A model generated the notes under the pieces. It saw nothing but the letters and a program-made list of their open reading frames with translations, was not told the origin of the DNA and searched no databases. Shown in pieces: positions 4,658-13,881 of a DNA stretch of 14,589 bases. The stretch is from Chloromonas sp. AAM2. Its lineage: Eukaryota > Chlorophyta > Chlorophyceae > Chlamydomonadales > Chlamydomonadaceae. Each line of letters opens with the position of its first letter. The first letter of the stretch is position 1. A program made the position numbers and the translations under genes. Location: contig QAXH01006247.1 in the NCBI GenBank assembly GCA_004335635.1, positions 7,874 through 22,462 of the forward strand, read 5' to 3'.

Positions 4658-4810
4658 TACCATCCCACACTGCTCTCATTCCAGTGAAAGGTCTTTTAGC
4701 TGGCTCTTCTTGAGTACTTCTGCTGGCCAGCGTCCGCCTAGGGTACACCTAGAGCGGATTGGTTTATGGTAAGGAGGCATTTCAGTAACACCCCACATGA
4801 ACCCGCCTAT

Positions 4811-4830
4811 TTGTCCCAGAACTGGCAAAC
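4811..4830 (-). repeat. Solitary copy of the GTTTGCCAGTTCTGGGACAA terminal motif
   Basis: The exact reverse complement of the 20-base motif, followed by a T-rich run as in the right terminus at 5168-5187. With the copy at 4912-4931 it forms a 20-bp perfect inverted repeat around an 81-bp spacer. It may be the remnant end of another element. Confidence 0.9.
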
Positions 4831-4903
4831 TTCTTTTTTCGAGTGTCGGTGAGTTAAGCTGGGCTAGAGCGGACCCTAAACTCAAAAACTAACGGATGAC
4901 CTC

Positions 4904-5198
4904 AAAAAAATGTTTGCCAGTTCTGGGACAATTCCTGTGTGAGTCATTAGTGGCGATACGCATTGTGTGTTATCATGACTCATTATGATGCGTATGTGTG
5001 CGGTAGTCCCTGGACTCGTTTGTTTGACATGAGAATTGTGGACCAGTTTTCAAGTGTCACCAAACCGTCTACCACTCCAACCAGGGCACCTCATCTCAGT
5101 CTCACATGACACGAAATCAACCCCACATGTGCACATCTCCACCACGTCACTGTCTATCTCACAGGAATTGTCCCAGAACTGGCAAACTTCTTTTTTTT
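4904..5198. mobile_element. MITE-like element with inverted GTTTGCCAGTTCTGGGACAA termini
   Basis: The left terminus (4912-4931) is preceded by a run of seven A and continues ATTCCTGTGTGAG. The right terminus (5168-5187, inverted) is preceded by CTCACAGGAAT and followed by a run of T. The terminal inverted repeat is about 30 bp, outward poly(A)/poly(T) included. The ~290-bp body has no ORF that could be a transposase. No clear target-site duplication is visible. Class is inference: a non-autonomous foldback or MITE. The remaining intergenic stretch 5199-5622 is probably the reductoisomerase 3' UTR and flank. Confidence 0.65.
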
Positions 5199-5622: not shown

Positions 5623-10119
<4,497 letters not shown>

Positions 10120-10337: not shown

Positions 10338-13300
10338 ATGCTGACAGAGTTGCCAGAAGCTTGCCATGCAGCTATCCTGCAGCATCTGCCTGCGAAAGAT
10401 TTGCTTCACTTGGGACAGACTTGCAAGGGTGGGTGCAGAGGCGCCATGTTTGGCCAGCAGACCGCCTGATCCAACGGACGTACCCAATGAAATGTACATC
10501 AACTAGACACCTTGCCGCTCAACCTGCAGCGCTGCGCAAGCTGGCGCATGCTCCCGTGCTATGGCACGACATTGCTGTCCAGAAGTTGGGCCACCATGTC
10601 CCCATGACAGTCAGGGATGGCAATTGGAAGACTTGGTGCTGCCATCGCATGAACTTCAAAGATATCCGGTGCGCCAAAAAATCAAGTTTGCCAGTTCCGG
10701 GACAGTTCTTACTGGAACCAGTGTGTACGTGCCTGTTGTAGTGGCAGAGTGTGATTGTCAGTTGTCAACCATTTTGTAACAATGCCTGAGTCTGGTTGGA
10801 ACTAGTGATATTTATAACCGCCGTCTTCTGAGTTCTAACCTCAACTTTTTCACCCTCAGTTCGTTGTATGGTCCACCCCAACTGTTGACCCCAAACCCTC
10901 TACGTACAGTGTCAAAGCTTAGGCTTCCAAGCACCTGCGCACCCTTGCAGAATACTCACAAAGACGCATTCCCGGCTCAATATTAATGCATGTTGGTGGC
11001 AATGGACCTGTCAGCAGTTTCACCTTGGCATAGTCAAGCAGACACATCATCGCACACCGCATTTGATTGTAATATAGTCCGGGGAATTGCGATGCCAGCA
11101 ATTCGACTGCCAAACTATAGCTTACAGCAACCCACCGCAGTACCATCCTCAACAGCACAGTTCATGCAAGCATGCTTCCCAAGCAAGTCACGGCTTCTAA
11201 CGGCAGGCCTTGATCAGTCGCCAATGAAAGGCCTTACAACGCAAAGATTGGCTGGGGACTGGTTGGGATAGATTTGATTGCATTGATTTATGATTGTTTT
11301 CGTTCTGATTCAGCTACGCGGTCCATTCTTGCACATTATATTCAGTTGGAAGCATGAACACGCAGGCTCCTGATGTCAGCAACTCGCACTGTCTCACACA
11401 CACCATGTTCATGCATGCATGCCGATGCATGCATGTTCATGCAGGCGCTCCCCGTACCGCCTGGTGCAGGAGTCATACCCGGACCCCTGGCAGCACATGA
11501 CTGCATGCGTCCTGTGCAGGTGATGAGAAGATTCCAACACAAACAATCACTTAGTACGAATAGTCTAGACGGCGGCTGCAGCAACCAAGGCCAACCTGCT
11601 ACTATTCAAGGGCGAATGCTGTGAACAATTTAGTAACCCATGATGACAGTAAGCATGTGTTGTCCTGCATGCGTGCCATCCGTGACTGGCCGAGAGATGG
11701 CCAGCCCCTTCGCTGTGGCTTGCATGATTTGGATAGCTTGAAGGTTGCGGCCCGTGGCTGGCCCTGAGCTAAAACTGGCCACAGCTACGATTGCTGCCTT
11801 AACAAATAACTACCATGACCGTAAACTTGTGTCCATTTGTCTCTCGTAGATTTCTTGCCTTTCCCAAACGATGAGAAGAAAGACAGTGCAGAGATGAAAA
11901 CGCCATATTGCTCTGGTTGCAGTTCTGGGGCCACCATGTCTGGCATACAGTGACAAAAAGGGAAAATCAGATTGAATTCATTCCATCATGCGCTGCAGCC
12001 GCACCAGTGGCTCTGAGGCCATCCGTTCCGTCATCAGTCAGTTCTTTGGCAAATTACCCACACCATCCCATGTCCTGGACGCCGCTGATGGGGCTCCCTT
12101 TGACTTCCTCTACCCCCTGGGTCTGCAGCCACAGCGGTGCGTCTCAGTAACCTGATCAATGTTTAGCTGCAATCTTAAGCTTGATGCAACCAGATGTACA
12201 TGATTCAACATAAGGCTTGTTCCCCTGTGCCTGGACTGAGTAGCACAGACTTGAGTTTCGTGCATTTTCCTTGCTGTATCCAGGTATACCGCATGTCACA
12301 CATGCCACACAAGTCTGGTTTCTTGTCTTGGTCAGGGGTGCCCGTCCCGTGTCTTGTAGCGGTGTTACTGATGTAGAGGGATGTAAGAGTTCTCTCACGC
12401 CTGTGCTTGACTGGGCCGTGTCTGTGTGCAGTTCCCGGGCAGTGCAGGCCATTGCTGAGGGGTTCCTGGGCACGGACTGGGCCTGTCCGTCCGAGTTCCA
12501 TGGGTGTGGCAAGTTCGTGGCCGACAGCTGGCGCATCTTCTGCAGGGGAGACCTCACAGGTACGTCTCTCCCAGGTCAGACGTGTGTGCGGCTGATGCTG
12601 CATAACATCATCAAATAATGCCGGCGCTCGGACTCTTGTTTACATCCATGCAAGGGTGGCAAGGCGCTCGCAAATTGTGGACCGATGGTTCAGATGTTGG
12701 GGCAGCAGCATGCAGTACGACTAAAAATGTCAGATCCTTTCTACCAGTCGCCAAGTCAGGCACAGTCAGGGCAGCTTTATGGGGCCTGGTTCAAGGTGTT
12801 CTGCATGTTGGTTGATGATACATACAATTGCTTGATTTGATTGTTTTGCCTGCAGGCAAGGGTGTAGAAGATTTAAGTCTGAAGAGCTATGTATATTGGG
12901 CGGCCAAAACCGTGTCGGATGCCATGCCAGCCGATACAGCTACACCACCTACCACCAGGCAACGCAACAGGTCTACTTCAAAGCAGCCACCGGCCAGTGT
13001 TCGCCAGCCCAACAACAAACCATTCAGACGCATGACCAGATCTTCAAACGAGTCTCTGAAATCTGTGGCAAGCATGGGCTCCAGACGTGTAACCAGATCT
13101 TTGGAAAAGCGGCTGCAGACAGCGGCAAGTGTGAAGGGGCAGTCAAGGGCCAGCAACAGCCGAAGTCGCCAGTCTGGGGTTGCTGGTGAGCAGATGAAGG
13201 GCCAGCAGCCGCCTATGGGAAGCAAGCAGCAGCGGAATACAAAGGCAAGCAAGGAGTGGAAGGGCAGCCATGCAAAGGCGGCAACCAGCAACAACAAGCC

Positions 13301-13463
13301 ACAGGCAACACGCAGACAGCAGCAGCTGGCCCAGCCACAGACCATCAAGGGGCAGGTAGGCACCAGCAAGGGCCAAAAGCGAGGCCTATCACAACTAACA
13401 GCGGCCTCGGCCTCAAACAAGCGTGCACGTATGATGGACTCAGGCAAGCTTGCGCGTGAGTGA
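10338..13463 (+). CDS. F-box / MBD4-like HhH-GPD DNA glycosylase fusion with basic C-terminal tail
   Basis: Best model: exons 10338-10428, 10530-10668, 11445-11519, 11999-12136, 12432-12559 and 12856-13463; all GT-AG, phases agree, 392 aa. Residues 3-42 form an F-box (LPEACHAAILQHLPAKDLL, then APVLW), which in other proteins binds Skp1 in SCF ubiquitin ligases. Residues 79-206 match the MBD4 glycosylase domain: SPYRLVQE, DPW, SRTSG, YPLGL, the helix-hairpin-helix FHGCGKF (170-176), DSWRIFC and VEDLSLKSY. E195-D196 aligns with the Glu-Asp holding the catalytic Asp of human MBD4 (D560), which removes T or U mispaired with G. Residues 208-392 are Lys/Arg/Gln/Ser-rich, contain a 19-residue duplication and end with an NLS-like NKRARM. 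No methyl-CpG-binding domain is seen. The first ATG after an in-frame stop (10281) is at 10338. Alternative: two genes, an F-box ORF 10338-10741 and a glycosylase starting at ATG 11419 or 11425. The glycosylase call is firm, the fusion is inference. Confidence 0.75.
10686..10705 (+). repeat. Solitary copy of the GTTTGCCAGTTCTGGGACAA motif in a glycosylase-gene intron
   Basis: It differs from the consensus by two bases (CCGGGACAG) and is preceded by an A run. It lies 17 bp inside the donor of the intron 10669-11444. No paired terminus is found nearby, so this is a relic end. Of the rest of this 776-bp intron, 10990-11271 holds an unassigned open frame with no known domain. Confidence 0.85.
11404..11442. 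repeat. Near-palindromic ATGC-rich tract before the first glycosylase exon
   Basis: CATGTTCATGCATGC is followed by an almost mirrored copy with CCG at the centre, and it runs into the acceptor GCAG|GCG at 11444. Two ATG codons in the glycosylase frame fall inside it (11419 and 11425). Confidence 0.8.
13026..13139 (+). repeat. 57-bp in-frame duplication in the basic tail
   Basis: AGACGCATGACCAGATCTTC at 13026 is repeated as AGACGTGTAACCAGATCTTT at 13083. Each copy encodes a 19-residue unit of the pattern R-(M/V)-T-R-S-x(6)-(K/Q)-(S/T)-(V/A)-A-S. The divergence shows it is an old duplication. Confidence 0.8.
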
Positions 13464-13619: not shown

Positions 13620-13881
13620 CAAAAAAATGTTTGCCAGTTTTGGGACAATTTTCTGTGTGACGCCCAGTTCTCTTAGGTGTGTTTTGAAGTGGGAAACTGA
13701 GAGGGTGTGTACGGTTCTCACTTGGCTTTTGACATTGTGCGATACTCCTTTGTGTATGTGAGATACTCCTTCAAGGACAAAAGACAAACGATAAACGTAC
13801 ACGCCCTCTCACTTCTCCAATTCAAAACACACACAGTGGAACTGGGTGTCACACAGGAAAAGCCCCAGAACTGGCAAACAT
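13620..13881. mobile_element. Long-TIR foldback / MITE element downstream of the glycosylase stop
   Basis: The left arm from GTTTGCCAGTTTTGGGACAA (13629) and the right arm ending CCCCAGAACTGGCAAAC (13863-13879) are reverse complements with mismatches. Complementarity continues inward for roughly 85 bp per arm: CTGTGTGAC, CCCAGTTC, GTGTTTTGAA, GAGAGGG and GTGTACG all have partners. The centre carries two direct GATACTCCTT copies. There is no transposase ORF. The terminal orientation is the same as in the element at 4904-5198, so they belong to one family, with different internal sequence. Confidence 0.75.

Follow-up and report, generated by a model that had tools for sequence, protein, structure and literature searches.

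An F-box, the docking piece of the protein-tagging (ubiquitin) machinery, and an MBD4-type DNA glycosylase appear to be joined in one protein of Chloromonas sp. AAM2, and this fusion looks real and old, because other algae have it as well. Taking the parts together, we consider it rather probable that a single gene encodes this F-box/MBD4-type glycosylase and that its product acts as a lesion-reading receptor of an SCF ligase, through a putative docking on Skp1-Cul1. The gene is located in what we call the window, that is the whole stretch of 14,589 nucleotides which was analysed (C2022:7874-22462, its right edge being the contig end), and it was studied together with the genome it comes from (74.4 Mb in 2324 contigs).

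Six exons on the + strand, between positions 10338 and 13463, give a single frame of 392 residues. An earlier note on this DNA had pointed to agreement of phase between the donor at 10668 and the acceptor at 11445 and to an unbroken frame, and the joined exons indeed translate with one stop only, the terminal one. Codon 77 is composed of positions 10667, 10668 and 11445, and thus takes two bases (CG) from exon 2 and one (G) from exon 3. The five introns are all of the GT..AG type and all five acceptors end with TGCAG. The gene and its surroundings are as follows.

6156-10119, - strand: ketol-acid reductoisomerase gene, upstream of the fusion gene and head to head with it
10338..10428, + strand: exon 1, start codon and the first part of the F-box
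10530..10668, + strand: exon 2, the remaining F-box and the segment behind it, through codon 77
10669..11444, + strand: intron 2, 776 bases, separating the F-box exons from the glycosylase exons; the disputed junction
10676..10759, + strand: repeat piece in intron 2, resembling 7 other places in the genome
11445..11519, + strand: exon 3, opening part of the MBD4-type glycosylase domain
11999..12136, + strand: exon 4, glycosylase domain
12000-12002, + strand: codon 103 in exon 4, position of human Arg468
12123-12125, + strand: codon 144 in exon 4, position of human Leu508
12432..12559, + strand: exon 5, glycosylase domain including the hairpin GCGKF
12514-12516, + strand: codon 176 in exon 5, Phe, which is Tyr540 in human MBD4
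12856..13463, + strand: exon 6, last part of the glycosylase domain and, behind it, a basic tail that carries two RRxTRS motifs
12870-12872, + strand: codon 196 in exon 6, catalytic Asp, position of human Asp560
13461-13463, + strand: stop codon of the fusion gene

According to this model, residues 1-76 form an F-box unit, residues 77-205 a glycosylase domain predicted to act on T or U opposite G, and all that follows a basic tail. It had been proposed that the F-box is created by joining 10428 to 10530, and this is borne out by a Pfam scan of the joined protein, in which both F-box families score above their cut-offs: F-box-like PF12937 (E 7.9e-10, 38.8 bits against a cut-off of 24.3, residues 3-46) and F-box PF00646 (E 4.3e-7, 30 bits against a cut-off of 20.5). 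The same scan returned these two families only, with neither a methyl-CpG-binding domain nor any helicase family. In a profile search of the genome, the F-box of the fusion gene is absent from the 11 F-box rows found; an intron splits the F-box there. With a domain above the curated cut-off, the predicted product may be classed with the F-box proteins.

The proposal that the four later exons encode an MBD4-type glycosylase also held. The segment 78-212 finds 15 distinct solved sequences at E<=0.001, every one of them named MBD4, with a best E value of 2.2e-19. Pfam HhH-GPD gave no match on the joined Chloromonas protein at E<=1, and the HhH-GPD profile search of the genome matched two other loci and not that of the fusion; the same family is matched at E<=0.01 by 16 of the 19 long relatives in the green set. 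Three residues of human MBD4, Arg468, Leu508 (the wedge) and Asp560 (catalytic), are named in a passage of PMC5406665. In a solved MBD4 chain, the Arg of RTSG, the second Leu of PLGL and the Asp of PED are spaced 40 and 52 residues apart, just like Arg468, Leu508 and Asp560, and on this equal spacing we take R103, L144 and D196 of the Chloromonas protein for the equivalents of these three residues. Among the 19 green rows, the Arg468 and Leu508 columns hold R and L in all cases, and the Asp560 column holds D in 17, the exceptions being P0021 (a gap) and P0094 (Asn), the latter having also a disturbed hairpin. Similarly, the 44 other, non-green rows keep R in 44, L in 43 and D in 41 cases. The Tyr540 column, placed by the same residue count, is occupied by Phe in 19/19 green and 41/44 other rows. 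The homology of the domain and the kept catalytic and wedge residues place the predicted protein in the MBD4 glycosylase family. Four short unnamed metagenome proteins, P0027-P0030, keep Tyr at the 540 position; they have 138-146 residues, extend barely beyond the MBD4-like catalytic domain, and fall outside the family in the tree described below.

The earlier note knew of no such fusion in the MBD4 family, and this picture of a singular protein did not stand, since the same architecture recurs across algae. A description of an F-box/MBD4 fusion was not found in the open-access literature, as searched in one library and partly by best matches only. The first search for relatives gave 15 proteins. 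Named sources include Monoraphidium minutum, Coccomyxa elongata, Coccomyxa sp. Obi, Myrmecia bisecta, Nannochloris, Micractinium and Parachlorella, as well as Scenedesmus PABB004 (where the depositors' name is Mbd4) and Scenedesmus NREL 46B-D3. One relative is recorded under an animal, the acoel worm Convolutriloba macropyga, and this record probably comes from an algal symbiont. P0094 carries the code Chlat1, which we take to be the streptophyte alga Chlorokybus. A further search, seeded with three divergent members, gave 84 proteins from among the 8000 candidates with most common words, which alone were scored, including ones from Ectocarpus, Scytosiphon, Skeletonema, Mediolabrus and the ochrophyte Chrysoparadoxa. 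Viral relatives were also looked for, and 21 pattern matches in viral contigs included none that encodes a relative.

Pfam scans of 40 chosen relatives revealed an F-box family at E<=0.001 in 16 of them (6/10, 1/10, 1/10 and 8/10 in four sets). An F-box-like match at E<=0.01 is present in 15 of the 19 long green-algal members, two of these having transcript-assembly names; P0002 and P0004 bear names of this form. The match covers just the latter half of the F-box in P0003 (E 0.062) and just the first half in P0006 (E 0.085), while Pfam recognised no F-box at E<=1 in P0005, in P0010 or in P0014, which is from Tribonema. The pairing of PF00646 with PF00730 in one algal protein, which had been put forward as a check, is found in P0004, passing the Pfam cut-offs for F-box and HhH-GPD; a second two-domain protein, P0046, passes those for F-box-like, F-box and HhH-GPD.

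A tree of 91 catalytic domains over 149 columns, built with land-plant and animal MBD4 left out and with a bootstrap that had not settled, separates 84 family rows from seven other rows (98/95). Within the family there are a green group of 36 rows including the Chloromonas protein (98/99), a diatom-type group of 29 (99/90), a brown/xanthophyte group of 10 (96/92) and a further group of 6 (97/91), with three rows unplaced; for unnamed rows, the group names are borrowed from named neighbours. The green alignment used all 19 long rows of 35 green ones, P0005, P0021 and P0093 having disturbed or short N-termini, and the non-green one used 44 of 47 long other rows, leaving out P0073 and P0097 (partial) and P0100 (which looks green). 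For the green profile, 15 of the 19 rows were combined with the Chloromonas protein, P0005, P0021, P0093 and P0094 being omitted. When N-terminal profiles were compared with eight unrelated F-boxes from the Chloromonas genome itself, the probability was 97.3% for the green group (16 rows), 91.3% for the diatom-type (23 rows), 96.9% for the further group (5 rows) and 3.8% for the brown-type (6 rows), the best column shuffle giving 1.2%. Brown-type and green N-termini compared with each other gave 58.7% (best shuffle 16.2%), and 14 of the 44 non-green rows have an F-box-like match at E<=1. The profile and Pfam results together indicate a clear F-box in the green algae and one that is divergent yet recognisable in the diatom-type members; for brown algae we make no such call. 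In the 16 green rows, mean pairwise identity is 0.35 in the F-box, 0.39 in the segment behind it, 0.54 in the glycosylase and 0.17 in the tail.

The tails are basic (Lys plus Arg 28%), and an RRxTRS-like motif occurs in 33 of 75 of them, against a shuffle mean of 4.3 and a maximum of 11 in 300 rounds, a comparison which ignores kinship among tails. The Chloromonas tail has two RRxTRS copies in an otherwise diverged region. As a guess, it might be a site for a basophilic kinase or an arginine motif that binds chromatin.

As the F-box exons and the glycosylase exons are separated by intron 2, it was plausible to ask whether they belong to one gene at all. The sequence does offer material for two neighbours, a short F-box gene that stops around 10741 and a separate MBD4-like gene that begins around 11419, which match in phase by accident: read-through of exon 2 gives a frame of 101 residues with the F-box alone, in-frame ATGs are present at 11419 and 11425, TGTAA occurs at 10775 and 11068, and a repeat piece lies directly behind the exon 2 donor. 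However, the number of TGTAA sites in intron 2 is near expectation (two sites vs 0.76 expected, P 0.17), and the relatives carry both parts in single proteins, two of which have transcript-assembly names. The claim that F-box and glycosylase reside in one protein is supported by this layout, recurring in several green-algal genomes and in entries named as transcript assemblies. The residues at the junction agree as well. The stretch MNFKDIR/RSPYRLVQE aligns gaplessly with MNMRTIRRSPLDLGQE and MSLKSIRRSPLSLLQE of the relatives, and among 78 GT/AG pairs tried in the junction region, 10 keep the frame open but only 10668/11445 yields MNFKDIR/RSPYRLVQE, so that this join is more than a chance match of phase. 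In P0012, P0018, P0034, P0100, P0103, P0104 and P0105, frames that apparently read out of an intron continue into the glycosylase, and the place of residue 77 is taken by Arg or Ser in them; as Arg/Ser fits a codon begun by the AG of the intron, the intron site appears, judging from the proteins, to be common to them and the Chloromonas gene. In P0100 only 27 residues lie between the F-box part and the glycosylase part, and 27 codons offer little room to finish one gene and hold a promoter for another. On these comparative grounds (relatives with both parts, the match at the junction, the gap in P0100) the reading as two adjacent genes was set aside; comparison with the relatives makes it unlikely, and the version with an accidental phase match seems to us extremely so. 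That both parts belong to one protein is, by the same comparison, well supported. Still, the ATGs at 11419/11425 and the TGTAA sites of intron 2 leave room for short alternative products. It might then be that alternative transcription or splicing yields the fused protein along with a short glycosylase devoid of the F-box, which would make the F-box an optional regulatory part. The internal in-frame ATGs would suit such a scheme, and so would the pair P0004 and P0018, whose names assign them to one transcript library and which have the same glycosylase and different upstream parts, without F-box in P0018; yet P0018 departs from P0004 also downstream of the part they have in common, as would be expected from unspliced RNA or genomic carry-over, and we regard this scheme as very unlikely.

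A repeat whose terminus is TTTGCCAGTTCTGGGACAATT was found in both orientations, at 6 sites in all (4809-5186, 10687-10707, 13630-13878); it resembles the ends of a small inverted-repeat element, and one of its pieces is the one in intron 2. Upstream, the ketol-acid reductoisomerase gene is identified by KARI_N (E 1.5e-13) and KARI_C (E 5.8e-5, below cut-off); its putative first Met near 10119 would leave about 220 bases to the fusion gene.

In the search of its own genome, the fusion gene is single copy. A second, unfused MBD4 was considered and rejected: six of eight rows are exons of the fusion gene and the other two have E values of 0.037 and 0.99. The Skp1 profile matched two neighbouring pieces on contig C938, and cullin pieces were found on C502, C574 and C1741. 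Between C574 and C1741 the cullin rows agree fully, down to their scores, which reflects either a duplicated stretch or an uncollapsed haplotype. The assembly contains 27 DNA_methylase rows, and thus many pieces of cytosine methyltransferases (26 rows on separate contigs, except for a pair on C1785), and cytosine methylation is therefore plausible. Neither a UDG-superfamily profile nor the codon pattern for GQDPYH found a match in the assembly, where introns or missing contigs could hide such a gene; an UNG-type enzyme may thus be missing from the genome.

To our knowledge, none of the characterised plant and animal MBD4s has an F-box. Metazoan MBD4 and plant MBD4L share with the algal fusion a homologous catalytic domain and the residues Arg468, Leu508 and Asp560, but the fusion differs from them in its N-terminal F-box unit and in Phe for Tyr540. 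The Chloromonas protein lacks the N-terminal methyl-CpG-binding domain of metazoan MBD4, and plant homologues are likewise described without one in a section of PMC6728418. According to an excerpt of PMC4964934, human MBD4 interacts physically with UHRF1 (a ubiquitin ligase) and USP7 (a deubiquitinase); unlike in the alga, these partners are separate proteins, and no F-box is known there. The solved F-boxes which best match the N-terminus of P0046 are those of FBXO31 (E 6.7e-5) and SKP2 (E 0.0014), which have different receptor domains behind the F-box. The fold of TDG differs from the MBD4 type. TDG is likewise a T:G glycosylase controlled by a cullin ligase, being a CRL4-Cdt2 substrate according to a passage of PMC8871960, but there the ligase acts in trans via another receptor. 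In Fbh1, an F-box DNA helicase, an F-box and a DNA-repair enzyme are likewise found in a single protein, and SCF-Fbh1 ubiquitylates Rad51, as stated in part of PMC4148199. Its enzyme is, however, a helicase and not a base-excision glycosylase, so that the plan alone is alike, and the UvrD-type helicase domain of the Fbh1 family has no counterpart in the Pfam scan of the Chloromonas protein. A portion of PMC12898128 deals with a fungal Ataxin-2 chimera, there without F-box.

As to function, the domain content suggests that the protein is likely an SCF-docked U/T:G glycosylase, with its own or a partner's turnover coupled to lesion binding. The F-box would dock on Skp1-Cul1, and the glycosylase domain would bind the mismatch and then the abasic product, thereby positioning the ligase. 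Should docking occur, the outcome that we favour, at somewhat less than an even chance, is that the enzyme itself becomes ubiquitylated in a lesion-coupled manner, leaves the abasic site and is turned over. Next, at a clearly lower chance, the ligase would ubiquitylate a partner at the lesion, from chromatin or from repair. A little lower still we rate a non-degradative role of Skp1, in stability or in targeting to the nucleus, of the kind reported for the F-box of fission yeast Fbh1. On one hand, it may be assumed that the fusion is real and that its F-box is a Skp1-bound structural or targeting module only, giving no ubiquitin ligase output. The F-box of fission yeast Fbh1 is required for nuclear localisation and foci (stated in a portion of PMC2294136), and the F-box is weaker in diatom-type and brown-type members. 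On the other hand, it is clear in the green set, cullins are present in the genome, and reconstituted SCF-Fbh1 shows ligase activity on Rad51 (a passage of PMC4148199); we thus find a purely structural role improbable, and prefer to see the protein as a receptor of the ligase. A bolder idea, which we hold as doubtful, is that of an ancient algal lesion-addressed ubiquitin ligase, in which the SCF receptor would recognise the G:T/G:U mismatch itself, base excision and the ubiquitylation of chromatin or repair proteins at that site would be one event, and the whole would be older than the split of green algae and ochrophytes or passed between them.

Fusions of an F-box with a DNA-repair enzyme are rare, Fbh1 being the one for which we found documentation, and the fusion described here may tie DNA repair to protein turnover. 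If the glycosylase truly has its own SCF docking site, its clearance from a toxic abasic product, or the marking of chromatin where 5-methylcytosine deaminates, would become testable in culturable algae. Should the genome indeed have no UNG-type enzyme, the excision of uracil could depend to a large part on the fusion, as a main uracil glycosylase. The history of MBD4 would also gain a branch, in which an F-box stands in place of the methyl-CpG reader of animal MBD4.
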